Assembly (NCBI RefSeq): GCF_012273515.2
Contig: NZ_CP050975.2
Location: 8,680,001-8,744,000, forward strand
Source of the DNA: Streptomyces sp. RPA4-2
Lineage (GTDB): Bacteria; Actinomycetota; Actinomycetes; Streptomycetales; Streptomycetaceae
Direction: 5' to 3'
DNA length: 64,000 nt
Below the pieces are notes generated by a model. It was not told the origin of the DNA. It ran no database searches and saw only the letters and a list, made by a program, of their open reading frames with translations. The position numbers were made by a program, and so were the translations under genes. Each line of letters begins with the position of its first letter. Position 1 is the stretch's first letter. Positions 7,455 to 49,592 of the stretch are shown here, piece by piece.

Positions 7455-8552
7455 GAGGGCATTTGATCTAGATGGATTGCCCTTTATCTCCTAGTACGTT
7501 CCTCGCCAGGTGGGTGTCGTCTCGTCCGTTATGCGCTTGGTGAGGTTGTCGATCGAGGCGACGTGGATCTTGGCTTCGGAGCTGGCGGGCAACATCTCGT
7601 AGTCGCGGGCGAAGCGCCGGTGCATCATGATCCATCCAATACTTCGCTCGACGACCCAGCGCCTTTTGACGACGTGGAAGCCACGAACTCCTGGAGTTCT
7701 ATTGACGACTTCGACGTCGACTCCGAGCTTGGCTCCGTGTTCGATGACGGCGTTTTTGAAGCCGGTGTCGACCCAGCTCTTGGAGATGGTCGGGTAGGTC
7801 TTTTTGGCCTGGTCGAGGAGCTGGATTCCCACGGCGTTCTCGGACAGGTTCGCGGCGGTGACGGTCGCGGCGAGGAGCAGGCCGAGTGTGTCGGTGAGGA
7901 TGCCTCGCTTGCGGCCGACGATTTTCTTGGCGGCGTCGGTTCCCTGGCTGGTCAGGGGCACGTTGGTGGAGGTCTTCACGCTCTGGGTGTCGATCACGGA
8001 CGCGGTGGGTTCGGGCTTGCGTCCTTCCTTCACGCGGGCCAGGCCGGTGAGGTCGTGGTTGAGCTGGGTGAGGATTCCCTCGTCGCGCCAGGCGGCGTAG
8101 TAGGCGTAGACGGTGGCGTGGTTCGGGAAGTCGTGCGGGAGGTATTTCCAGGGGATTCCGGTGCGGTTGACGTAGAGGAGTGTGTTGAAGATGTCGCGCA
8201 GGTCGACCTTGGCTGGCTGTCCGGTGGGCCTGCGGTCGAGTCGGGCCTTTCTCCAGGCCGTCAATGTCGGTTCGAGTAAGGCCCATCGGGCGTCGGACAG
8301 GTCGCTGGGGTACGGCTTCCGCTGGCTCACGCCGTAGCGTGATCATGGATTGCGGTGGTCGGCGCTGTTCCCCTGCTGCTGGGCGTTTCTGCCTGGTCTT
8401 CAAACCAGACGGACTTCATGCTTGAGAACCGGAGCAAACGGGCGGGCATGTCCGCAGCTCGATGGACGTGAGGGTGCGCGTATAGGACAAATACCCCAAG
8501 CGTGACGGCCGCGAAGGTCACTTACCGATACAGGTCATCGCTAAATGCCCAC
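7455..8552 (-). mobile_element. IS5-family insertion sequence, apparently complete, TAA target duplication
   Basis: The transposase gene (7491-8330) is flanked by imperfect 10-bp terminal inverted repeats: GAGGGCATTT at 7455-7464 and AAATGCCCAC at 8543-8552 (9 of 10 pair). TAA is present directly outside both ends (7452-7454 and 8553-8555). A 3-bp TNA-type duplication is usual for the IS427-like branch of IS5. The space between the gene start and the right end (about 220 bp) is rather long, so the right boundary is less certain than the left. Confidence 0.6.
7491..8330 (-). CDS. IS5-family transposase, full length
   Basis: 279 residues from GTG 8330. It starts YPSDLSDARWALLEPTLTAW and has RTGIPWKYLPHDFPNHATVY. 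The DDE triad is visible: VIDTQSVKTS for the first Asp, KSWVDTGFKNAV for the second, and VVERSIGWIMMHRRFARDYE with the Glu. GRKRGILTDTLG lies between, as expected. No frameshift or stop, so the enzyme could be active. Confidence 0.93.
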   Translation of the reverse strand: MSQRKPYPSDLSDARWALLEPTLTAWRKARLDRRPTGQPAKVDLRDIFNTLLYVNRTGIPWKYLPHDFPNHATVYAYYAAWRDEGILTQLNHDLTGLARVKEGRKPEPTASVIDTQSVKTSTNVPLTSQGTDAAKKIVGRKRGILTDTLGLLLAATVTAANLSENAVGIQLLDQAKKTYPTISKSWVDTGFKNAVIEHGAKLGVDVEVVNRTPGVRGFHVVKRRWVVERSIGWIMMHRRFARDYEMLPASSEAKIHVASIDNLTKRITDETTPTWRGTY

Positions 8553-36167: not shown

Positions 36168-36722
36168 TCACTGCCCGGCGTCGGCCAGTTCCTTGTCCTT
36201 GACCGTAGCGTCGAACAGCGACGCGGCTGCCATGCGGGCGGTCGTCGCCGCGGACGGGTTCCTGTCCATCCGCGCCGAGACTCCCGCGCCGTCGTACTGA
36301 AGGTGCAGCTGCCGTGCCAGGTCTTCGGGGGCGGCGACGCCGGCCTCCCGCGCCAGATCCGTGAACAGCGTCCTCACCCAGAGCCGGTACCGGTCCGCGG
36401 CACCCTCGACGGGGCTGCCTCGCAGCGCCTCTGCGCTGGCCGTCATGTGTGCACAGCCGTTGAAGTCGGGCTCGGTGAACAGCTGGCCCTGCCCGTCGAA
36501 GACCCCCAGCAGACGCTCGCGTGGTGTCCGGAACCGGGTCAGGGCGCGCTCGACCTGTACGCGGGTGTCGGCATGCCCGGCGTCCAGGTAAGCCTGGACT
36601 AGTTCCTCTTTGCTGCCGAACAGGTTGTAGAGCGATGCCTTGGCGACGCCGGCCTTTTGCACGATGCGGTCGATGCCGACGGTCTGGACGCCTTCGCGGT
36701 AGAACAGCTCGTCGGCGCCCTC
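36168..36722 (-). pseudogene. TetR-family regulator, 5'-truncated
   Basis: The coherent frame begins at the junction near 36722 with DELFYREGVQTVGIDRIVQK, then AGVAKASLYNLFGSKEELVQ and AYLDAGHADTRVQVERALTR, and runs to a normal C-terminus ending KDKELADAGQ. The first 15-20 residues and start codon are missing. The breakpoint adjoins an equally truncated MFS gene on the other strand, so a deletion or rearrangement joined the two. An internal ATG at 36662 could in principle start a protein lacking half of the HTH. Confidence 0.75.
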
Positions 36723-36725
36723 GTG

Positions 36726-37219
36726 CGGTGATGCTGAGCGGCGCTCTGCTGCTGACCGCGGTCTTCGCCGCGCTCGCCGTCGTCACGGCCGCCGGGAGCG
36801 GCGGCTGGCGGTTGGGCGCACTGCTCGTCACCTGGGCCACCTTCGGCGCCACCTGCTCGATGGTGCTCAGGCCGACCGGGCGGCTGATCCGGCGGGCGGC
36901 GCCGCCGCAGGAGCGGACGTCGGCGTTCGCCGCGCAGTTCTCCCTGTCGCACAGCTGCGGGCTGCTGACCTACCCGCTCGCCGGCTGGCTGGGCGCGGCC
37001 GCCGGACTCCAGGCGGCCGGACCCGCCCTGGGCGCCATCGCCCTGCTCGCCGCGCTGCTCGCGCTGCGGCTGTGGCCGTCGTCCGCCGCGGCGAGTATCA
37101 AGCACGAGCACCAGGACCTCGACGAGGGGCATCCTCACCTCTGCGGCGCCCGCCGGATGCCGACCGGCTGGCGGCAAAGCCACGACTTTGTGCCGGACAG
37201 GCTGCACGCCCACCCGTAG
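36726..37219 (+). pseudogene. MFS transporter, C-terminal fragment
   Basis: The frame reads MLSGALLLTAVFAALAVVTA, GALLVTWATFGATCSMVLRP, FSLSHSCGLLTYPLAGWLGA and GAIALLAALLALRLWP: the last four or five membrane helices of an MFS carrier. It ends with a hydrophilic tail, EHQDLDEGHPHLCGARRMPT and GWRQSHDFVPDRLH. Such His-rich tails occur on actinobacterial MFS proteins near metal-resistance genes (from memory). The N-terminal half is lost at the junction with the TetR fragment. Confidence 0.7.
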
Positions 37220-37587
37220 AGATCAGGCTTCGATGCTTCGTCTTACGCGCCGGGACGGGCCGAAGGCGTACACGGCGAGGATGGCGGGCGGGTCGGCGAG
37301 ACCCGGCCCTGCAGCCCGTATCCACGTGGCGATGCCGGCCGTCGCCTCGGCGTCGTTGACCTGGCCGAGCCAGACCGGTGACCCGCCCACGGCGTGTCCG
37401 GCCGGTGAGGGGCTGCACGACGATCACGTTGGTTTACGGCCCGTACCCTCGCGATGCCTCGCAGCTCGGCTTTGAGTGAGGCGAGTTGGGCAGGGTGGTC
37501 CAGGCCGGGGACCTTGGGCGTGCCGCAGCAGCAGCCGCGGCAGACGGTGACCGTGTAGTTCGGGCGTGTCCGCCGGCGCCGGGGCAC
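37220..37587 (-). pseudogene. Thioredoxin-like 2Fe-2S ferredoxin-type protein relic
   Basis: It starts YTVTVCRGCCCGTPKVPG and LASLKAELRGIARVRAVN; then the segment that should hold the second cysteine pair is deleted, and after a shift it continues NVIVVQP, then WLGQVNDAEATAGIATWIRA and PPAILAVYAFGPSRRVRRSI. The order matches (2Fe-2S) ferredoxin domain proteins. Loss of the second Cys pair and the frameshifts make it dead. Confidence 0.6.
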
Positions 37588-37602
37588 CTCGGGTGCGGCG
37601 GC

Positions 37603-38836
37603 TCATCGGGCCTGCTCCGATGCTGCGCGCCGCCATGCAGCGTCGCGCAGCAGGCGCAGGCCGTTGAGACCGACGATGACGGTGGAGCCCTCATGGCCCA
37701 GGACACCGAGCGGCAACGGGAGGGTGCCGGCGAGGTCCCAGATGACCAGGGCGGCGATGAACATCCCGGCGATCACGAGATTCTGGACGACCAGTTTCCG
37801 GGCACGCCGGGAGAGGCCGATCACGGCGGGTACGGTGGCGAGTTCATCACGGACAATTACCGCGTCGGCGGTCTCCAGGGCGAGGTCGGAGCCGGCCCGG
37901 CCCATCGCGACGCCGGTGTGCGCGGCGGCCAGGGCCGGGGCGTCGTTGACGCCGTCCCCGACGAGAAGAACCCTGCGGCCGGCGACCTCCAGTTCCCTGA
38001 CCGCGCTCACTTTGTGCTGCGGCAGCAGCCCGGCTCGTACGTCGTCGATCCCGACCTCGGCGGCCAGGCGCGCGGCGGCCCGCGGATTGTCGCCGGTCAG
38101 CAGCACCGGCGGGGCGCCGGTGAGCGCGGTGAGTGCGGCGGTGGTCGCAACGGCGTCGGGGCGCAGCCGGTCGGCGATGCCCAGTACTCCGACCGGGGCG
38201 CCGTCCACCTGTACAAGGACCGCGGTACGACCGCCCTCCTCCAGCTCGCCCACCAGGAGCCGTGCCCGGGCGGCCTTCGCGTGCCCAGCCCCGTCGATCA
38301 GCCGTGCAGGCGCTCCCACCGCGACGACACTTCCGCCCACGGTCGCCCGCACTCCGACGCCAGGGGTGGAATCGAAGTCCACAGCCACCGGCAGCCCCAG
38401 GCCGCGTTCACGTGCCGCGTCCACGACGGCCCGGGCCAGTGGGTGCTCGCTGGGGTGCTCGGCCGCCGCCGCGAGGGCCAGCAGCTCGTTCTCGCCCAGG
38501 CCGGATCCGGCGAGCTGCCTGATGTCGGTGACCCTCGGAGTGCCTTCGGTCAGCGTTCCGGTCTTGTCGAAGGCGACCGTGTCGACCTGCCCGAGACGCT
38601 CCATCACCACGGCCGACTTCACCAGCACCCCATGCCGGCCCGCGTTGGCGATCGCGGACAGCAGCGGCGGCATGGTGGCCAGCACCACCGCGCACGGCGA
38701 GGCCACGATCATGAAGGTCATGGCGCGCAGCAGGGAGCCGGTCAGCTCGGCGCCGACGGCGAGCGGGACAAGGAACACGGCCAGGGTCGCCGCCACCATG
38801 CTGAGCGAGTACCGCTGTTCGACCTTTTCGATGGGA
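37603..38836 (-). pseudogene. P1B-4-type heavy-metal ATPase, 5'-truncated
   Basis: About 410 codons. From the junction near 38836: VEQRYSLSMVAATLAVFLVP, then the metal helix MTFMIVASPCAVVLATMPPL with SPC, the phosphorylation loop VDTVAFDKTGTLTEG, nucleotide-binding EHPSEHPLARAVVDAA, the hinge VLLVGDGVNDAPALA, and the last helices with GHEGSTVIVGLNGLRLL. SPC in helix 4 plus HEGST in helix 6 is the P1B-4 (cobalt/iron-type) signature. The first helices and the actuator domain are missing. An upstream-extended open frame exists but is unrelated sequence. Confidence 0.85.
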
Positions 38837-39163: not shown

Positions 39164-39397
39164 ATGAGCGAACAGCCGGCCCCCGCCGACCACGCCCGGC
39201 AGCAGCTGGAGCCCGCGGCCGCCGACGCGGTCCGCGCGTACGCCGCCAGAACCCGCGAGAGCGCCGACCGGCTCGCCGCCGTCCTGGAGGACATCGCCGC
39301 CAACGGCCTGCCCGCAGCAGAAGACTGCACGCCCTGGGAAGAGCTGCGCGAAGCGCACCTCACCCGGCTCGCAGCCCAGCGCCCGGCCGTCGCCTGA
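39164..39397 (+). CDS. Antitoxin-like protein of a type II TA pair
   Basis: 77 residues from ATG 39164 with GGAG upstream. Ala/Glu/Arg-rich and helical: QQLEPAAADAVRAYAARTRE, SADRLAAVLEDIAANGLPA, EELREAHLTRLAAQRP. Size, composition and position ahead of a RelE-like protein with a 1-nt stop/start overlap (TGATG) support an antitoxin. No DNA-binding motif is recognised. Confidence 0.65.
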   Translation: MSEQPAPADHARQQLEPAAADAVRAYAARTRESADRLAAVLEDIAANGLPAAEDCTPWEELREAHLTRLAAQRPAVA

Positions 39398-39663
39398 TGG
39401 CCCACGGATCACGCCGAGCCCGGATCGTCTTCTCCGACTCCGCCGCCAAGCAGCTGGAGAACATCACCAGCGAGGCGGAGATCCACGCCCTGGACCGCGC
39501 CCTGGTCGTCATCTCCGTCGACCCCGACGCCGGCGAACCCCTCCCCGGCGACAGCACCGGCCCACAGCTGCGCCAGTACGTCGACGACGTCGAACGCGTC
39601 CGGCTCCTGTACTGGGTGACGGCGCTGAAGACCGTGGTGGTCATCGCCTTCATCGAGGTCTAG
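39397..39663 (+). CDS. RelE/ParE-like toxin
   Basis: 88 residues from ATG 39397. RRARIVFSDSAAKQLENITS is the opening beta strand and helix of RelE/ParE-fold toxins (I-x-F-S-x-x-A-x-x-x-L), followed by IHALDRALVVISVDPDAG and the beta-sheet end RLLYWVTALKTVVVIAFIEV. RelE-type proteins cleave mRNA on the ribosome; ParE-type act on gyrase. The sequence does not tell which. A hairpin follows directly. Confidence 0.72.
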   Translation: MAHGSRRARIVFSDSAAKQLENITSEAEIHALDRALVVISVDPDAGEPLPGDSTGPQLRQYVDDVERVRLLYWVTALKTVVVIAFIEV

Positions 39664-39968: not shown

Positions 39969-40259
39969 GTGACGAGTGCGAGGGCCGAGTGGCGGGAGAG
40001 GGCCGCGTGCGGCAGTTCCGACGCGGACGGCCTGTTCGCGGACAGTGCACGTCAGCGGCAGGCCAAGGCAGTCTGTGCGGGGTGTCCGGTGCGCATTGAG
40101 TGTCTTGCCGAAGCGCTTGATGAGCGTATCGAGTTCGGGGGATGGGGAGGTATGACCGAGCGGGATCGCAGAGCTCTCCTGCGACGCAAGCCGAACGTCG
40201 CCTCCTGGCTCTCCGTACTGGAAGCCGCCCAGAACAGCATGGTGTCCCGCGCCGACTGA
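39969..40259 (+). CDS. WhiB-family iron-sulfur transcription factor
   Basis: 96 residues from GTG 39969 with GAGAGGG upstream. Four cysteines fit the 4Fe-4S site: WRERAACGSSDADGLF, AKAVCAGCPVRIECLAEAL (C..CxxC..C). The turn GGWGGMTERDRRALLRRKP is the WhiB signature with the basic DNA-binding tail. WhiB proteins are specific to actinobacteria and their phages and bind sigma factor region 4. The divergent or plasmid-borne target is unknown. Confidence 0.93.
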   Translation: MTSARAEWRERAACGSSDADGLFADSARQRQAKAVCAGCPVRIECLAEALDERIEFGGWGGMTERDRRALLRRKPNVASWLSVLEAAQNSMVSRAD

Positions 40260-40454: not shown

Positions 40455-42565
40455 TTAGGGAGTGGGGTGTGCGGCAAGCCAGTCCTGGAGTTCCCGGTGG
40501 CGGAACTGGTAGGCGACGCCGGAGATCCGCAGGAGCCCCGCTTCGTAGGCCCAGTTCAGGAACGTGCCGAGGCGCCAGGGCAGTCGGCCCCGGATACAGA
40601 GCAGGAAGACCAGGTAGCGGCGGCCAGCCCCAGAGAGCCAGTACAGCCCGACCACCATCCCGAACACGAGTGCGAACGCGAGTTTGAACACGAGTGCGAG
40701 CGCGAGTTTGAACGCGAGCCCGCTTGAGAACCCCCATATGAGCCTGTCCACGAGCCAGCCCGAGAGCCCGAGCACGAGCCCGAGTATGAGCCCGACCGCG
40801 AGCCCGTACGCGAGATCGTCCCGCACCGGATGACGCGGGTCTGTCGGCTGAGCGTCATTCAGGCGTTCCACGAGCCCGAACAGGAGCCCGTGCGTGAGCC
40901 CGACCGCGAGCCCGAGTATGAGCCCGACCGAGAGCCCGAACACGAACCCGCCCGAGAACCCGACCGAGAGCCCGAACACGAGCCCGAACACGAGCCCGAC
41001 CGCGATAGTCCGGGCGAGTCGGCGGAGGTGGGTTGGGCTGCGCAGCCGCTGGGGCTGGAACCTTTGAGGCTCTGGAACGCGTGCACGACTGGGCTGCCAG
41101 ATACTTCCCAGGGCAAGCAACACGGCCACTGAGGCGCTGAACGTTTGGCGAGATTGGGAGCCCAGGGAGAACGCGACAGGATCAGGGTGGTGAAGGCGAG
41201 TGTGAGGAGGGCGGCGAGCAGGGTGTCGGCGGTGCGGACGCGGCGGGGACCGGCCATGGGCCACAGCTGGTGGAGGACGATGTCGGTGCTGCTGGCGGTG
41301 GATGTGGGTGTGGTGGTGGCGAGGTGGGCGGCGAGTGCGGCGAGCCAGTGGTGGGTCTGGTCGGGGCGGTAGTGGTTGGGGCGGGTGGGGTGCTGTTGGG
41401 CGGCTGCGGGGAGGTAGCGGGCGAGGAGGTGGTCGCGGACCGCGCTGGGGGAGGCCAGGGTGAGCAGGTGGTCCGGTTCGCGGAGGTAGGCCAGGGTGTC
41501 GGGGTGGCGTTCTTCGTAGGCGGTTGCGGCCAGGTTGAGGCGCCAGGGGGTGGCGAGGGAGCGGGCCAGTGTGCCGCCGGGTGCGGTCGTGAATGTGTCG
41601 ATGACCGGCTGCCAGCGGTCGGGGCTGGTGCTGCGGGCGGTGAGGTACGCGGTGGCCTGGCCGGGGCTGACGTCGTCGAGTTGGATGCGGGCGGCCTCAC
41701 GCATCCGCAGGTCAAGGCCGGCCAGGTCCGCGTACTGGGTGGTGCGGCAGGTCAGGACGACCGGGGCGATGCCGGTGGGGTCCTGGTAGGCGTTGAGTTG
41801 CTCCACGGCGCGCGCGGCACGGCGGCGGCCGGCCGGAGTGGCGTCGGTGTCCATCTCGTCCAGGACCGGCAGGACGCGGTATCCATTCACCAGCGTGGTT
41901 GCGTCGGCGAGGGTGATGCCCTGGTCCCGGAACTGCTGGTGGACCTGGTGGGCGAGCCATTCCTGAAGAGGTTGCTCGGTGTTCCAGTCGGCCAGGGAGA
42001 AGCGGACCGGGACGGGGGCAGCGTCGGTGCGGCCGGGGTGGGTCAGCAGTCCGAGGATGAGGTCCAGGGCGAGCAGTGTCTTGCCGGCGCCCGGTTCACC
42101 GGTGATGGCCAGGCGGGCGGGGCGCAGGTTCTGGTAGTAGGACACGATGTCGGTGAGGCGGCCGTGGGCTGCGGCGCCGGTCGCGTTGTTGGCGGGCTCG
42201 GTGCGCTGGTGGAAGGTCACGTCGATGCGATGGGCGCCGGGGCCGATCAGTTGGGCGCGCTGCCGGGTCTCGGCCGCGGCCACGACGGCTGCCAGCGTTT
42301 TCACCTTCGTGTCGGTGTCCGCTGCGGCCTCGCGGCGGTCGTCACGGTAGGCGGCCCAGGTGAGGTAGGCGCCGGGCAGGGTGGGGGCCAGGGCGACGAG
42401 CGTGGCGCCCAGCCGCGCCACCTGGAAGTGCTTGGACAGCCACAGCGCCAGCATCACGGTCACGGCCTGCAGGACTGCATAGATGGCGGCTGGCCGGCGG
42501 GTCCGTGATCGTGTCATGCGACGTATGGTCGCCAGAGCGCTGAGCGGCGGGAGGACGATCGCCAC
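40455..42565 (-). pseudogene. NACHT NTPase with glycine-rich membrane-repeat C-terminus, frameshifted (locus 1)
   Basis: From GTG 42565: two membrane helices (YAVLQAVTVMLALWLS; LVALAPTLPGAYLTWAAY), a linker, then NACHT with LAITGEPGAGKTLLALDLIL (Walker A), VPVRFSLADWNTEQPLQEWL, RVLPVLDEMDTDATPAG (Walker B) and VVLTCRTTQYADL. The N-part frame stays coherent to about 41175 (LLAALLTLAFTTLI). The rest is one base out: VAFSLGSQSRQTFSASVAVL, EPQRFQPQRLRSPTHLRRLA, a long VGLVFGLVFGLSVG-type repeat, and the end AYQFRHRELQDWLAAHPTP at 40455. A 1-nt loss (or a -1 shift) separates the halves. Intact length would be about 700 residues. NACHT proteins include phage-defence sensors; the role here is inferred. 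Confidence 0.75.
40650..41010. repeat. Low-complexity tandem repeat encoding the Gly-rich membrane segment
   Basis: On the plus strand the word CGAGCCCGA recurs with 6, 12 or 30-bp spacing (alternating GAGCCCGAACAC, GAGCCCGACCGC, GAGTATGAGCCC). In the minus-strand gene frame this is VFGLVFGLSVGL-type membrane sequence. Because the unit length is a multiple of three and lacks stops, all minus-strand frames and one plus-strand frame stay open here, which hides the frameshift in the NACHT gene. Confidence 0.7.
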
Positions 42566-42705
42566 CTTCGGTTCCGAACTGAGACATCAGGCGATATGCG
42601 CGTCGACGAGATCGCGTGGACCACGAACCACCGGCCGAAGGGGGCGAGCACAGACCGTGCCGTGGGCGTCGGGACCGTCGCCGGAAACCGGGTAGCGCCC
42701 TCCGC

Positions 42706-42810
42706 CTACTCGCGGAAATGATCAAGCGTCTGAACTATGCGGCACGTCTGGCACTGCGAGCAATTGCACTTGATTTCCACGGCCTCGTGCCGCAACTGGC
42801 GGTCGTTCAT
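42706..42810 (-). CDS. Possible 34-residue cysteine-cluster peptide
   Basis: ATG 42810 opens a short frame, MNDRQLRHEAVEIKCNCSQC and QTCRIVQTLDHFRE, then TAG. The CNCSQCQTC cluster could bind a metal. It is preceded at about 42838-42903 by a 60-bp sequence found inverted at 43591. No strong ribosome-binding site (GAAGCC only). Highly tentative. Confidence 0.25.
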   Translation of the reverse strand: MNDRQLRHEAVEIKCNCSQCQTCRIVQTLDHFRE

Positions 42811-42837
42811 GGTGGCTTCTGCTCTGATCAGCTTCAG

Positions 42838-42903
42838 TGGTGTCGACGGTCACGCAATTCCCCACCAGCGGCGTCAACTTCCCCGCCCACGCGTTCGAAC
42901 GCC
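42838..42903 (-). repeat. Inverted repeat copy A (60+ bp)
   Basis: Read on the minus strand it begins GCGTTCGAACGCGTGGGCGG at 42902 and matches the plus-strand sequence from 43591 (GCGTTCGAACGTGTGGGCGG) at about 54 of 60 positions. The two copies flank the hypothetical gene at 42909-43478 in inverted orientation. The outward ends lead into different genes. Confidence 0.75.
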
Positions 42904-42908
42904 ACGTC

Positions 42909-43478
42909 TCAGATCTCGGGGACCCATTCCACGGGCGGGGGCATGCGACTGTAGTGGGGTCCCCTGGTGCCGTACTGGGCGAGGTGCAGGATTTCGCCGC
43001 CGACCGCGAGCTCTGCCGGCGGAGGGTTGGGAACGGAGATCCGCGGGTGACGCTGGCCGTCGATGACGATGCCCTCCCGGAGGTCGTTCCGGCCATCCGC
43101 CCAGCTCTGGGCCCGCTCGCGAGTCCACGGGTCCTGCAGGGTGCGCGGGGCGGCCGGGTCGTGGTCGTAGCCGTTGAGGCTGCGGACGAGACCTTCGCTG
43201 TAGACACCCTTGACCCGGAAGTTCTCCAGGTCGTCCGCGCGCACGACCATGTTGACGTACCGGCGGCCGTTGCCTCTGTGCCGCCCGACCGCATGCCAGC
43301 GACCCCAGCCAGGGTCCCAACGCACGGGCGGGATCCACAGCAGGGCGCCTACCGGGAAGTGCTTCGTGCCGCGCTGGATGTCGAGACCACTCTCACCGCG
43401 CGTAGTTTCCCGCGCCACGTTGGCCACCAGGCACCAGCCCAACGGTCCGTCCGGCGTCTCTTCTTCGGTAGGTTCCAT
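42909..43478 (-). CDS. Hypothetical protein
   Basis: 189 residues from ATG 43478 with GGAAG upstream. Composition is normal and soluble: GWCLVANVARETTRGESGLD, HFPVGALLWIPPVRWDPGWG, WHAVGRHRGNGRRYVNMVVR, ADDLENFRVKGVYSEGLVRS, REGIVIDGQRHPRISVPNPP. The block V-G-R-H-R-G-x-x-R-R-Y is well formed. No family recognised. The gene lies between two inverted copies of a 60-bp repeat and between NACHT loci, so it may belong to a cassette. Confidence 0.65.
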   Translation of the reverse strand: MEPTEEETPDGPLGWCLVANVARETTRGESGLDIQRGTKHFPVGALLWIPPVRWDPGWGRWHAVGRHRGNGRRYVNMVVRADDLENFRVKGVYSEGLVRSLNGYDHDPAAPRTLQDPWTRERAQSWADGRNDLREGIVIDGQRHPRISVPNPPPAELAVGGEILHLAQYGTRGPHYSRMPPPVEWVPEI

Positions 43479-43590
43479 GTCTTCCACACCCAGAATCTTC
43501 ACGCACGAGACGGGACGCGAACCAGCTTTTATCAGCTGAGCACACCGGAGCAAACCACATGCGGATCACCAGGCGCAGGAGAAACCCGGG

Positions 43591-43655
43591 GCGTTCGAAC
43601 GTGTGGGCGGGGAAGGTGACGTCGCTGCTGGGGAATTACGTGACCATCGACACTG
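43591..43655 (+). repeat. Inverted repeat copy B (60+ bp)
   Basis: Partner of copy A at 42838-42903. Differences are scattered single substitutions, and similarity ends after about 65 bp on the outer side and at GCGTTCGAAC on the inner side. Confidence 0.75.
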
Positions 43656-43862
43656 GTCATCGGGCTGCTGGCCGGTTACTGGATCGGCACCCACCTGCAC
43701 GGCACCCCGGCACCCCAGCCGGACACCCCGCGCCCGGGCCACACCACACCAGCACCCCAGCGCACCGTGCTCATCCCCCGTCCGCGCCGCCGGATCGGCC
43801 CCGCCCGCAGCGCCCCGGGCCCCGCTACCCACAGCACCCCGCCCAGCTCCGTCGATGCCTGA
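43644..43862 (+). pseudogene. Small membrane-protein relic (helix plus Pro-rich tail)
   Basis: From about 43650 the frame reads LVIGLLAGYWIGTHLHGTP, a single membrane helix, then a Pro/Arg-rich tail ending ATHSTPPSSVDA and TGA at 43860-43862. That stop overlaps the next gene's ATG (TGATG), as in an operon. There is an in-frame stop at 43641 and no ATG/GTG before the helix, so the 5' end is missing or displaced by repeat copy B. Confidence 0.4.
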
Positions 43863-44356
43863 TGGATGCCTCACTGCCTCTGGAACTTCGGATCGTCGGC
43901 GTATTGATCCGGCTCTACGGCCTGCCCGTCATCCGTATCGTCCACCTGACGACCGACGGCTTTCACCAGGACGAGCGCGGGGCCTACTTCACCTTCGACA
44001 AGAACCCCGTACTCCTGCCGCCGACGCTGGCTCGTCTCATCGAACAGCAGATCACCACAGGCCGGTCGCGCGCTGCCCTGGGGCCGCTTGCCACCAGCGA
44101 GCATCCCGAACTCCTGCTACCCGGCCAGCCCGCCAGCCGCCCACGCAGCCCAGAGGTGTTGTCCGGACAGCTCATGCGGCACGGCCTGCCCACCATCGCC
44201 GCCCGCAACACGGCCTTGTTCGGCATGGCCGGTGAACTCCCGCCGATCATCATCAGCGACCTCTTCGGCGTCCACAGGAACACCGCGACCCAGTGGGCGT
44301 CGCTGGCTCAGGACAGCTGGGCCGGCTACCTAGCGGCCCTCAGAGCTACCGAGTGA
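43862..44356 (+). CDS. Recombinase-like protein, C-terminal type (likely truncated)
   Basis: 164 residues from ATG 43862. It reads LELRIVGVLIRLYGLPVIRI, VHLTTDGFHQD, FDKNPVLLPPTLARLIEQQI, SGQLMRHGLPTIAARNTALF and GMAGELPPIIISDLFGVHRN, ending TATQWASLAQDSWAGYLAAL. This is the C-terminal part of a tyrosine-recombinase-like family common in Streptomyces accessory DNA, where a small HTH-like end (SDLFGxHxNTATxWxxxA) replaces the usual catalytic Tyr region. The N-terminal part is missing. A degraded second copy of its end is at 47110-47248. Confidence 0.6.
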   Translation: MDASLPLELRIVGVLIRLYGLPVIRIVHLTTDGFHQDERGAYFTFDKNPVLLPPTLARLIEQQITTGRSRAALGPLATSEHPELLLPGQPASRPRSPEVLSGQLMRHGLPTIAARNTALFGMAGELPPIIISDLFGVHRNTATQWASLAQDSWAGYLAALRATE

Positions 44357-45209
44357 CGCCCTATCAGGTATTCCCTTGGCAGCGGCTCGTCCGGCTCGAC
44401 GTGGTTTTGCTGATCAGCAGATGGTGCGTTCTCCGAAGCGGGCCAGGCAGTGCCAGACCTTCTTGAGGTCCTGAAAGCCGTAGCGGCCAGTGCGGGCGGC
44501 ATCCCCGATGATCTTGGGGCTGAGCAGGTCATCAACGGCGATCTCAGCACCCAGGTCAACGTATTCCTGTCCCCGATAGCTTGAGTGACGTCGCAGTTCA
44601 GCCACGCTGAGCCGAAAACCTGGATGCCATTCGATTGGGCACGGGAGGCGGTGAGCTGCGGATTCGATCTCTGTGCCGCGATAACTGGGGTCCAACACCA
44701 GTGCCTCTACGTCACGGTCGAACCTGACCGGTCCGTGAATCTGCGCCTCGATGTGACCGTCCACGGCATCCAGCTTGTCCGCCTCAGCGAGCTCGATGAG
44801 CGAGCAGCGGTCGGCTGTGCCGAAGTCGGAAGGCTCGGTGGAACTGTCGGGGTAGCAGAGCGTGGTGCGACTGAGGGTCTCGATGCCGAGCCTGAAGTAC
44901 GAGGAGCCGAACCGCGGTGCACCACCGATCGGATCACGGCGGTAATTCAACGCACCATATACGGGGCGCTGGTCAGCTGATGCGTCGTCGTACGCGCCGC
45001 CGAAGATACGGCTCTCCCAGCGCCACCGGTCTCCGCCAGGATGAGCGGTCAGACCACCGTTGCTCGTGCCTGTCACAAACTGTGACCGGTACACACGGTC
45101 TTCCACCATCTGGGCCAGGACCAGATGGCCCTCCGCGGAACGATCGGGATGGAAGTGCATCGTCACCCGTAGGTCACGGGCGAGCGGCTCTCCTCTGCAT
45201 GAGAGGGCG

Positions 45210-45608
45210 TTAAGTCCGTTTCTGGTAGCGGCCGCGTCCGGGTTGTTCGAGGAGTCCTTGACGGACGAGTCGTCCCAGGCGGGAGCGGGTGACGTTGATC
45301 GAGGGCTCGTCGGTGGGCAGGCCGAGGTGCTCGTGCAGGTCGCGGACACGGAACACCTTCCCAGGGTGCTCGTTGAACGTGGTCACGATGCGCTGGTAGA
45401 CGGTGGCGGTCTCCACGAAGGCCGTTGCGTGATCGGGCGGGGTGAGGCCGTCGATGACCTTGCGAGTCGCGGTGAGCTCGGCCAGGCGGGCTTCGGTCTC
45501 GGCGAGGCCGGTGGTGAGCCGCACGATCTGCTCGCGCAGGTGGTCGGCTCGTGCGGCGGTCTCATCGTGCTCGGCCTGCAGCAGCCGCAGGAGTTCGCTG
45601 ACGTTCAC
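45210..45608 (-). CDS. Coiled-coil/winged-helix protein inside the IS5 element
   Basis: 132 residues from GTG 45608, overlapping the transposase end by 4 nt (GTGA). Residues 1-50 are coiled coil (SELLRLLQAEHDETAARADH, LREQIVRLTTGLAETEARLA). The C-terminal 65 residues are a winged helix: YQRIVTTFNEHPGKVFRVRD, LHEHLGLPTDEPSINVTRSR, LGRLVRQGLLEQPGRGRYQK. The stop codon lies inside the left terminal repeat, so the gene belongs to the element. It may regulate transposition or bind the ends. Architecture parallels 17012-17638. Confidence 0.8.
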   Translation of the reverse strand: MNVSELLRLLQAEHDETAARADHLREQIVRLTTGLAETEARLAELTATRKVIDGLTPPDHATAFVETATVYQRIVTTFNEHPGKVFRVRDLHEHLGLPTDEPSINVTRSRLGRLVRQGLLEQPGRGRYQKRT

Positions 45609-46463
45609 GCGGCCAGCTCCACGTCGTCCCGCCAGGCGGGGGCAGGGGTGGTGAGGCGGCGGAGCATGCTTAAGCGGTGGAGGCCCAGTAGACGCGGGAA
45701 GCCGCGTTGTCGGGCCGGTGATCGTAGTCGCGGGCGAGGCGCCGGTGCAGCATGAGGGTGCCGTTGGCCTGCTCGACCACCCACCGCTTCGGTTGCGGGA
45801 CGAAGCCCTTGCCTTCGTCGTCGGGGTTGCGCCGAACCACCTCGACGGTGATGTCCTTTACCGCCCCGTGGATGATCACAGCGTCCTTGAAACCCTGGTC
45901 GACCAGGACCTTTTCCAGGCGCATCCCACATCGTTCGGCCGCCTGGTCCAGCAGGGCGATGCTTAAGCCTCGTTGTCGTGGGCGCTCGCGGCCAGGACCA
46001 CCACACCGATGATCAGGCCCAGCACGTCGACTGCGAGTCCCCGCTTCCTGCCAGGCGTCTTCTTGTTCGCGTCCAGTCCCGTCGTCTCCTTCGGCACCCC
46101 GGCCGCCACGCGGACGGACTGGGTGTCGATGATCACCAGGGACGGGTCCTCTAATCGTCTGGACCGCTCCCGCACCTGGCAGCGCAGGATCTCCTGAATC
46201 CGCTGGTCAAGACCATCCTGGCGCCACAGAGTGAAGTAGTAGAACACCGCCGACCAGGCCGGGAGGTCGTGTGGCAGGAGCCGCCACTGACAGCCCGTCC
46301 GGTTCTGGTAGAGCAGCGCGTTCACTACCTCGCGCAGGTCGCAGGAGCCCGGGTCCCCGGTCGCCGACCGCGCCACCCGCTCCTGCTTCCACGCGGTGAC
46401 CAGCGGCTCGATCAACGCCCACTGCTCGTCGGACAAGTCGGTTGCGTACGGCATCCGTTCCAT
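45605..46463 (-). pseudogene. IS5-family transposase with two frameshifts
   Basis: Segment 1 (ATG 46463 to 45963): MPYATDLSDEQWALIEPLVT, LLPHDLPAWSAVFYYFTLWR, SLVIIDTQSVRVAAG, PGRKRGLAVDVLGLIIGVVV and stop after HDNEA. Segment 2, one frame over: ALLDQAAERCGM, KVLVDQGFKDAVIIHGAV, KRWVVEQANGTLMLHRRLAR, stop after YWASTA. Segment 3, shifted again: SMLRRLTTPAPAWRDDVELA and stop at 45605. All three DDE residues exist but in different frames. Both breaks occur at the same 10-mer GCTTAAGCAT (45667-45676 and 45959-45968). Confidence 0.82.
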
Positions 46464-46629
46464 GCCCACGACCTCATCATGCACACGACATGACCCGAGG
46501 GCGGAACTGTCCCATCACCCACGAACGGGCGACACCACATCATCAGAAACGGGACTTAACGTCCTCTGAAGCCGCGACGTGCTGCAGAGCCTTCTCCTGC
46601 AGCGGTACGGCGATGTCAGCACGCATGCG

Positions 46630-47109
46630 TGGAGTGTGCACGGACGGCACTGTTCAGCGCACGTCAGTTTGTGAGAACCCCCGCAGCCTCGCTCGCCGTT
46701 CATCGGTCCCGGCATCAGCCATGCACACCGAATAGCGCAGGGCTGAAACATCGCCTCTTCACCAGGACGCCGCGCCAGCCGACGGCCGCACCATCGCCAC
46801 AGGCCTCGCCGCCCTCGCATGGACCACCGCCTCCACGTTCGCACTGCGCGGACTGACCCTCCGCTTGGCCCACTTCACCCACATCCACAACGCCGGTCAC
46901 CAGATCGAGCGGCACATCCACCTACCGGCTGACACGGACACCCCGGAGACCCCGGACAACGTGCACCCACTCGAACAGCGCTGACCCGCCGCCCGCCCTG
47001 ACTTTCGCCCGTCCCGCGCGGGCGAGGACCGGACAGGGCGGCCGGCCTGCCACCCGTCACACCCCACGCTCCGTCTGACGAACTTCCGCCGATGGGACGC
47101 AGCACGGCC
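46630..47109 (+). pseudogene. Region with a relic reading frame (46758-46984)
   Basis: One plus-strand frame reads DAAPADGRTIATGLAALAWT, TASTFALRGLTLRLAHFTHI and HNAGHQIERHIHLPADTDTP, ending HPLEQR and TGA at 46984. Composition is that of a real gene but there is no start signal or recognisable family. The remaining bases appear empty. Confidence 0.35.
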
Positions 47110-47248
47110 TAGTTCGGCATGGCTGGGGAATTACCGTCAATCATCATCAGCGACCTCTTCGGCCTGCACCGGAACACCGCGAGCCAAGGGGCGGCGCTCG
47201 CCCAGGACAGCTGGGCCAGCTACCTCGCGGGACCCACTACCAAGTAGG
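47110..47248 (+). pseudogene. Second, degraded copy of the recombinase-like C-terminus
   Basis: FGMAGELPSIIISDLFGLHR, then NTASQGAALAQDSWASYLAG and stop. This is the same end as 44215-44356 (FGMAGELPPIIISDLFGVHR), roughly 85% identical in DNA. An in-frame TAG just upstream and the lack of further similarity show it is a fragment. Confidence 0.7.
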
Positions 47249-47401
47249 TCAAACGGGCTGCTTTACAACCTCTTTCCGCAGCTCAAGGCGCTTTGTGCTG
47301 CGCGGGTCGTGAGCCCCGTGTGGTTCAGTCGGAAATCCATGTTTGACCTGCATCGCCAATCGGCTTTTTGTCCTACGGGAGGTAGGTGATGATGTCTTGT
47401 T

Positions 47402-49592
47402 ATGAGACGCGGGGGACGTGGCCGGGGGCCGCGGTATGTGGGCTGGATATACGTAGTGTTGTCCCTGGGTGGGCTGAGCGCGGCGCTCGTTCTGGCTTGG
47501 CGATTCGATCTTGGAGCAGCCCAAACCGCTGCGACTGCGCTTTCTGCTCTTGCACCGGCATATCTTGCCTGGGCAGCTTTCCATGCCGATCGCGTTGAGG
47601 CCGAACCGGCGGATGCGGATAAGGTCCTGGAGCAGCTGGCGGTGGCGATCAGAGCCCAGTGGGACAACGAGGCGGAAGTGCGCAGGGTCAACGACCCCTA
47701 CCCGCTGCCAGTCGCTTGGGCTGCCGGCGACGGCGATCTCGCGGAGGACTGGTCGTTGTTGACCGGCCTGGCCCGCTCTTGGCCCGGTGGGCCCCCGGGC
47801 GATCCCGCTCTGTGGCCAACGGATGCCGCCGGGCTGGCGGGTCAGGATGCGGAGATCGGACTGGTGTTCTCGGAGAGGGTGCCCACGCGACGCTTGGTGA
47901 TCCTGGGCGAACCCGGCGCAGGCAAGAGCGTGCTAATGATCCGGCTACTGCAGGATCTCATCGAACGTCGAGCTAACGGGGAGCCGGTGCCGGTGCTGTT
48001 TTCTCTGGCTTCCTGGGACCCCCACCAGCCGCTGAAATCTTGGATGGCCGACCAGTTGCGTCGCACCCACCCCGGCCTGGCCACAGCGGCTCCGCTCGCG
48101 GTCAACCTTGCGGACACCACGGAAGCCGGGTCCAGCGACTTAGCTCTGCACCTTCTCAACGCGGGCCGCGTCCTGCCGATGTTCGACGGTTTCGACGAAC
48201 TACCGCCGTCCCAGCACGCCACCGCACTCGACATGCTTAACCGCGCTCTGCCCGCCCGACAGCCACTGGTCCTGACCAGCCGCACCGCCCCCTACCGAAC
48301 CGCCCTGACCCGACCGGGTACCAACGTCCGACTCAATGGCTCCGCTGTCATCCAGCTCCTGCCCCTCAAGGCCGAGCAGGCCGCCAACTACTTGCGCCGC
48401 GACGCCGGCGGCCCGCACGCCCCTGCAGCCCGCCGGTGGAACCGCGTAATCACCCATCTGGGCACCAGCAGCCCTGTCGGACAGGCCCTCGCCACGCCGC
48501 TGGGTCTGTTCCTGGTACGGACCATCTACAACCCCCGCCCCGACTCGCCCCCTGGTCCTCTGCCAGCATCACACCCGGATGAACTATGTGATACCGCTAA
48601 TTATCCTGACCGTACCGCCATCAGTATCCATCTCTTCCATGCTTTCATTCCCGCCGCCTATGCCCCGCAACAGCCTTACCCGCCCCGTTGGTCAGCCGAT
48701 CATGCGCGCCGAGCATTCGTCTGTCTTGCCCGGTTCCTGCAGGACCGACGCGCAGGTAACCCCGATCTCGCCTGGTGGGAGCTACGCATAGCCACGCCTC
48801 AGCTCGTGCCCTATCTGGTGGCGGCGTGCGTTATTCGAGTCCACGGTCGTGACAACGCCTGGGTTCGCGCTCGGAATCGGAGGTAGGGCTTTATTGGGGC
48901 TCCAGGTCGGGATCGTGTTCGGGCTAATGACAGGCCTTGCCGCAGGGTTCACGCGCAGAGTCGTACGCAGGTTCACGCACAGATACAGGGAGTCTGGGCT
49001 CCCGAGCATCCGACTTCGCCTTTCGCCGATTGGAATCCGGCGCGGGTTCCCGCTCGGGATCGCGACCGGGGTAACGGTCGGAGTCTCGACCCATCCGGTT
49101 TCCGGGCTCCTGGTCGGATTCACATGCGGCATCGTGACCTCGCTCATGAGCACATTCAGGGCTGATGCTCCTGACCTCACAGCTAGCTTCGTGCCGGCCG
49201 CGCTTCTCGCCTTGGACCGCCGCACTTTCCTCATGTTCGGGCTGACACTCGGACTCGCGTTTGGTTTTGTATTCGGGACCGTAGGAGGGGTGGCCGAGTT
49301 CACAATAGACGGGATCCCGATCGAGCTTGCGACCGCGATCACGGCCGGGATTGGATTTGGGCTTGCATTCGGGCTCACAACCGGTTGGCTGGAGACAGCA
49401 TGGGTTCACTTCGTCATTGCCCGTGTCTATCTGGCGCTACGTCACGGGGTTCCGTGGCGCCTCATGGAGTTTCTGCAGGATGCACACGAGCACCGCGGCG
49501 TGCTGAGGCAGGCCGGGGCGGTTTATCAGTTCCGGCACATCGACCTGCAACGCCATCTCGCTGAGGATCGCCCAAGACGCAGAAGCAGCTGA
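47402..49592 (+). pseudogene. NACHT NTPase with glycine-rich membrane C-terminus, frameshifted (locus 2)
   Basis: N-part 47402-48886: membrane helices (VGWIYVVLSLGGLSAALVLA; AATALSALAPAYLAWAAFHA), NACHT with RRLVILGEPGAGKSVLMIRL (Walker A), VPVLFSLASWDPHQPLKSWM, RVLPMFDGFDELPPSQ (Walker B) and LVLTSRTAPYRTAL, then LVPYLVAACVIRV and stop. C-part 48849-49592, one base forward: TTPGFALGIGGRALLGLQVG, IVFGLMTGLAAGF, FGLTLGLAFGFVFGTVGGVA and the end AVYQFRHIDLQRHLAEDRPR. The two parts overlap by 38 nt; GTG 48849 could in theory start the C-part separately but has no ribosome-binding site. The best Shine-Dalgarno near the 5' end (GGGAGG, 47377) fits an out-of-frame ATG at 47389 better than ATG 47402. 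Confidence 0.75.

Follow-up and report, generated by a model that had tools for sequence, protein, structure and literature searches.

Bacterial antiphage proteins with a NACHT nucleoside triphosphatase (NTPase) module, the bNACHT proteins, are characterised in the available portion of PMC12169576 by an N-terminal effector and a C-terminal sensor placed around that module, and genes with a frame break that their mostly intact homologues do not share are classed as 'hypothetical pseudogenes' in the accessible part of PMC3711429. Here we analysed a window of Streptomyces sp. RPA4-2 DNA, i.e., the whole stretch of 64,000 nucleotides at positions 8,680,001 to 8,744,000 of contig NZ_CP050975.2, and in it two NACHT loci, A on the minus strand and B on the plus strand, each of which is broken between a NACHT part and a glycine-rich membrane part ending in a YQFRH motif. 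Most probably, A and B represent two pseudogenes, inactivated separately, of a membrane-anchored NACHT/STAND NTPase family that is common in Streptomyces, lying in a partly plasmid-like and decaying stretch, and presumably no working protein is made from either of them. On this reading, the two loci cease to be candidates for programmed frameshifting, phase variation or a split system and become a further case of decaying putative defence genes.

Translations and searches bear out the preliminary description of the two loci, given there at 40455-42565 and 47402-49592, namely that the NACHT part and the YQFRH part lie in different frames and that the shifts differ in direction (-1 in A and +1 in B). 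The break of A, reported near 41175, was located at the same place by a DNA alignment with an intact copy on a plasmid, as listed in Table 1. The ATG at 42517 is the counterpart of the annotated start of this plasmid copy, and the out-of-frame remainder of A matches residues 453-682 of WP_329529578, the protein of this plasmid copy, at 81.5% amino acid (aa) identity. The interval first given for the break of B (48849-48886) proved to be the overlap of two listed open reading frames (ORFs), and a frame-aware alignment to the relatives L006 and L070 places the break in the interval shown in Table 1, with a third reference (L101) giving a poor score and extra shifts. Neither break falls at the boundary of the NTPase and repeat domains, as had been supposed: the break of A coincides with the end of the first helix predicted to lie in the membrane (426-451 in the homologue model), and that of B lies within the first such helix (468-495 in the L006 model), where membrane helices were assigned from model helices and hydropathy.

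Among 199 sampled genomes of the genus, the B protein has a match in 110 (own genome included) and the NACHT part of A in 95. A total of 128 loci were examined for frame continuity, with a second alignment test. They comprise 58 best matches of the two genus searches (L143 standing in for the shorter L009), 40 later rows of one of the two match lists, taken in order with five rows apparently on short contigs passed over, and 30 others, i.e., three copies from this genome, three loci taken from named genomes (a Saccharopolyspora among them), three that a DNA search supplied, four on plasmids and 17 further loci, some of which were chosen since their rows looked short. The loci L191, L192, L194 and L196 stand outside the 128. 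Exclusion of L016 and L027, which run off the contig or locus end, gave 123 evaluable loci outside this genome, and the less selected subset of 98 loci (58 plus 40) was reduced to 96 by two that run off an end. The loci L112, L120, L136 and L160, which carry a variant tail motif, were scored intact as their relatives align to the tail in one frame, and for L079, on which the motif test (intact) and the alignment test (broken) disagreed, the alignment verdict was used.

The NACHT part and the YQFRH tail share one open frame in 114 of the 123 evaluable loci. The broken ones, nine of the 123 and five of the 96 in the less selected subset, are L035, L075, L079, L102, L106 (a remnant), L121, L137, L143 (split by about 1.3 kb) and L152, and none of the nine is broken at the first membrane helix, their breaks being spread between about residues 226 and 626 as numbered in the protein to which each locus was aligned. 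With most homologues intact and no broken one sharing the position, A and B show the pattern of the pseudogene class as it is set out in the accessible part of PMC3711429. Scattered breaks in homologues had been named beforehand as the outcome that would speak against a meaningful boundary, and this is the distribution that the survey returned; a split two-protein system, one of the options first raised, has no counterpart, as none of the 123 loci is split at this place. The closest copy of A found, an intact annotated NACHT protein of 682 aa on a linear plasmid of Streptomyces sp. NBC_01462, has 92.5% DNA identity to it. Two more A-type copies with 75% and 72% DNA identity are intact, as are L039 (69% aa identity to A), the B relatives L006 and L070 (63-65% aa identity) and the plasmid copies L100 and L101. 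Because intact relatives of both A and B exist, the ancestral state would most simply be one uninterrupted gene. What L194 in genome G107 and L196 in genome G188 retain of an A-type gene is limited to about its 60 final residues (84-90% DNA identity), beside unmatched sequence; a stand-alone C-terminal gene was considered for these two loci, which match the tail only, and was rejected, as both look like 5'-truncated remnants.

Locus A carries a second lesion, a 9-nt in-frame deletion by which three Walker B residues are lost and Walker A is kept. The Walker B residues D220, D223 and E224 are invariant across 54 aligned intact proteins, and the D-G-x-D-[DE] motif occurs in 100 of the 101 intact proteins with a recognisable Walker A (from a library of 111 proteins, of which the 10 without the Walker A pattern were left unscored). 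The NACHT half of A scores 20.5 bits against PF05729, under the cut-off of 26.7 bits, and B (47.2 bits) and three intact relatives (47.3, 40.6 and 36.6 bits) score above it. Given the loss of these residues, the NTPase half of A is, judged by its sequence, damaged as well. The earlier suggestion of selection for losing the membrane domain is thereby weakened for A, in which the NTPase half has also lost an invariant Walker B residue. In the translation of B, Walker A and Walker B are both visible by eye, and no further disabling change was noticed there, no systematic check having been made. A third member of the family in this genome (L142, chromosome 9319447-9320619) has an in-frame stop in its N-terminal part, with a 606-aa open frame beginning just after that stop. 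It is the only other member found, no intact member was found in this genome, and two other PF05729 matches in the genome are different proteins by translation.

Two predicted structures align to the NLRP3 NACHT module end to end, from the nucleotide-binding domain to the C-terminal tail, and the predicted fold has structural matches in NLRP3, NLRC4, NOD2 and Apaf-1. A profile search of PDB sequences gave no match, and the PADLOC and NCBIfam searches gave weak P-loop matches only. The arginine at 261 is invariant in the family alignment, and Walker A, like Walker B, is invariant in the 54 aligned intact proteins. Mean column identity is 0.67 for the YQFRH tail, 0.64 for the Walker A region and 0.26-0.37 for the membrane helices. 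The preliminary description counted the YQFRH tail as part of the membrane repeat, which is not sustained: the tail is conserved like the Walker A region and sits at the end of the alignment with the NLRP3 NACHT module, with few or no residues beyond the winged-helix part in the two models. The glycine-rich membrane bundle is apparently inserted inside the NACHT switch, of which the YQFRH tail apparently forms the end of the winged-helix part, and because the bundle lies within the module, the breaks would sever the switch and not an optional domain.

An intact protein is predicted to consist of N-terminal membrane helices, which could act as the effector, nucleotide-binding and HD1 domains, about six long glycine-rich hydrophobic helices and a winged-helix end. 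By its fold and by established NLR biology, nucleotide exchange would turn the winged helix relative to the NTPase, as happens in NLRP3 or Apaf-1. With the bundle placed between HD1 and the winged helix, this motion should reach the membrane helices and rearrange them in the membrane. Both frameshifts interrupt the module within the bundle's first helix, and neither half should then work as a switch. We tentatively suggest, as a possibility that falls well short of the likelier outcome, an NLR-like design, perhaps undescribed and found widely in Streptomyces, with a multipass glycine-rich bundle between HD1 and the winged-helix end; the rotation would then move membrane helices and damage or depolarise the membrane, and the cost of this would explain the three separate inactivations here. 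If the layout is confirmed, it would offer a direct test of winged-helix movement driving membrane effects without a separate effector domain, and the YQFRH tail would belong to the NTPase module and not to the membrane repeat. No paper describing a membrane bundle placed within a bacterial NACHT module came up in a literature search, and the design is not claimed to be unpublished.

The ratio of non-synonymous to synonymous substitution rates (dN/dS) between A and the plasmid copy is 0.22 for the NACHT part and reaches 0.88 for the tail part. When changes in the tail are polarised, the counts (synonymous/non-synonymous) are 0/8 on the A branch and 7/10 on the plasmid branch (Fisher p 0.057), and for the NACHT part they are 10/9 and 20/10 (p 0.38). 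Relaxed constraint on the tail of A after the break is thereby hinted at and not established, given that intact pairs also show a fast-evolving tail (dN/dS 0.34-0.61). In addition, 4 of the 8 assessed genes in the island that holds A and B have frame breaks, against 3 of 41 in a sample from the chromosome centre (Fisher p 0.009), or 4 of 10 if two in-frame remnants are counted as unbroken (p 0.02). The centre control is a noisy comparison with genome G009, in which frames were taken from stop to stop and about 41 genes were comparable; the reverse direction gave 2 of 42 frame changes, genes with a stop within the aligned part, 11 each way, were left out of the count, and the codon-position guanine plus cytosine (GC) content of two of the three centre hits suggests non-coding or shadow frames. 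The regional excess is suggestive, with A and B themselves contributing to it.

Several observations weigh against the interpretation of A and B as products of ordinary decay. When A and B are left out, the excess of breaks in the island (2 of 6 against 3 of 41) is not significant (p 0.12). All three copies found in this genome are interrupted, which is more than the background of 5 in 96 predicts, a pattern that was noticed post hoc. The low dN/dS of the NACHT half of A indicates constraint, which fits a recent break and also a half kept for use. The closest relative of B, L035 from S. glomeratus, has 78% aa identity over residues 1-343 and unrelated sequence after 343, i.e., it is truncated, so that the intactness of the nearest kin of B rests on more distant copies. 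Lastly, the two breaks are 7 or 16 well-occupied alignment columns of 685 apart, depending on the relative used. By chance, a second break would land within 16 columns of the first in about 5% of cases, and that the two lie so close is taken as a mild coincidence. The earlier view that the two breaks are independent, with opposite shifts arguing against one programmed site, is upheld.

The interruption of every member found in this genome, the broken loci elsewhere (9/123, or 5/96 in the less selected subset) and the two further genomes that keep little more than the tail end of an A-type copy would all accord with selection for inactivation, in which costly intact proteins, autoimmune or membrane-damaging, are repeatedly knocked out and the position of the break is irrelevant. 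We consider this rather unlikely, as most of the loci outside this genome (114/123) are intact and unrelated genes near A and B are broken too, for which general decay suffices.

Less probable again is that the genes are intact in the organism and that the breaks are indel errors of sequencing or assembly. The assembly is a single contig of 9.86 Mb with 100% completeness, no homopolymer of at least four bases lies at the breaks, and three neighbours of A are in one frame at 92-96% aa identity to the same plasmid. The 9-nt Walker B deletion, a 24-nt difference from the plasmid copy and the truncated neighbours are atypical of single-base errors. What speaks for such errors is that both breaks are net one-base changes, that the third copy, an IS5 transposase and a ferredoxin-domain gene are also read as broken, that the excess without A and B lacks significance, and that the noisy comparison of the centre returned 3/41 frame changes with 11 stops (2/42 with 11 in reverse), though two of its three hits are doubtful by codon-position GC.

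A role of the NACHT halves as persisting truncated proteins, e.g., as a dominant-negative partner of an intact homologue, is very improbable: the NACHT domain of the B half does exceed the Pfam cut-off, but no intact family member to be regulated was found in the genome, the A half has lost Walker B residues and stays below the cut-off (20.5 against 26.7 bits), and truncation removes the winged-helix end of the module.

The stretches 41085-41235 (A) and 48782-48902 (B) were scanned for slippage signals. Neither contains a zero-frame X XXY YYZ slippery heptamer, the only homopolymer of at least four bases in them is a GGGG at 48896, about 50 nt from the break interval of B, and no short tandem repeat tract was found at either break site, so the phase-variation-like slippage first proposed is not supported. 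The 12-nt arrays of A are at least 172 nt away, beginning 172 nt past the break in the gene direction, and a two-copy 36-nt repeat lies at 41419-41498. Programmed ribosomal frameshifting requires a conserved shift site with a slippery motif; no such motif was seen in the scanned stretches, and no other surveyed locus shares the break. Though each half still has an open frame that can be recognised and the two break points are close in the protein, the joining or separation of the halves by programmed frameshifting or phase variation can practically be discounted, given the opposite directions, the scan and a break common to no other surveyed locus.

Table 1. Coordinates (window positions) of loci A and B, their lesions and the neighbouring features.
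Feature	Position	Strand	Basis or remark
Locus A, N-terminal helices and NACHT NTPase part	41177..42517	-	92.3% aa identity to residues 1-455 of WP_329529578 (L098)
Locus A, frame break, net one-base shift (-1)	41174..41175	-	DNA alignment to L098
Locus A, out-of-frame remainder	40458..41171	-	Glycine-rich membrane bundle and winged-helix-like YQFRH tail
Locus A, second lesion: 9-nt in-frame deletion, three Walker B residues gone	~41861..41864	-	DNA alignment to L098
Locus A, imperfect 12-nt tandem arrays coding four-residue membrane repeats	40661..41002	-	24 nt longer than plasmid copy, in frame
Locus B, N-terminal helices and NACHT NTPase part	47402..48823	+	PF05729 47.2 bits, over cut-off
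Locus B, interval with frame break, net shift +1	48824..48842	+	Frame-aware alignment to L006 and L070
Locus B, out-of-frame remainder	48843..49592	+	Membrane bundle and winged-helix-like YQFRH tail
Plasmid-like segment	38939..42586		91% identity to linear plasmid NZ_CP109471 (Streptomyces sp. NBC_01462)
WhiB-like gene adjoining A	39969..40259	+	One frame, 92% aa identity to plasmid copy
Two small genes	39164-39394, 39412-39660	+	One frame each, 95-96% aa identity to plasmid copies
IS5-type transposase between A and B	45640..46463	-	Frame-broken near 45966/45960
AbiEi-like gene	45213..45608	-	One frame, 91% aa identity
Remnants: MFS transporter, ferredoxin-domain gene, P-type ATPase	36722..38832		MFS transporter 5' truncated; ferredoxin-domain gene frame-broken; P-type ATPase 5' truncated at 38832

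Both loci lie within 9 kb of sequence, some 1.1 Mb away from an end of the assembled chromosome. The similarity of the segment around A to the plasmid stops about 70 bp upstream of the start codon of A. The two small genes at 39164-39660, which share this segment with A, resemble a toxin-antitoxin pair (RelE-like) as judged by eye. On plasmid NZ_CP109471, the intact copy of A (L098; 1-12460) stands about 5.5 kb from annotated ABC-three-component system genes, and a WhiB gene lies just downstream of it. The IS5-type transposase was read against a single-frame coding sequence of 275 aa on an S. albidoflavus plasmid, and a second IS5-type copy at 7527-8324 of the window aligns in one frame. The reference for the MFS, ferredoxin-domain and P-type ATPase remnants was an S. 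mirabilis plasmid. A 133-nt repeat with 86% identity occurs twice, at 44204-44336 and at 47098-47230, the second copy being just upstream of B, and its source, by eye, is the end of a recombinase-like ORF.

Like the frameshifted pseudogenes covered by the accessible part of PMC3711429, A and B have a transition that is not conserved, largely intact homologues and no recoding signal found, and they differ from that class, as far as it is described there, in that two family members within 9 kb are hit, with a third elsewhere in the genome. The family shares Walker A, Walker B, the invariant arginine 261 and the predicted fold with the NACHT-clade STAND NTPases (PF05729), such as NLRP3, NLRC4, NOD2 and Apaf-1, and differs from them in having about 200 residues of glycine-rich hydrophobic helices before the winged-helix end and, in the two models, no leucine-rich or other sensor repeats after the winged helix. 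From the bNACHT antiphage proteins, as outlined in the available portion of PMC12169576, it differs in that the models contain no C-terminal sensor beyond the winged-helix part. It has in common with them, within the same portion of that source, that it is a bacterial protein with a NACHT NTPase module, and the intact plasmid A-type copy lies near an annotated ABC-three-component system; any role of the family in defence is putative.

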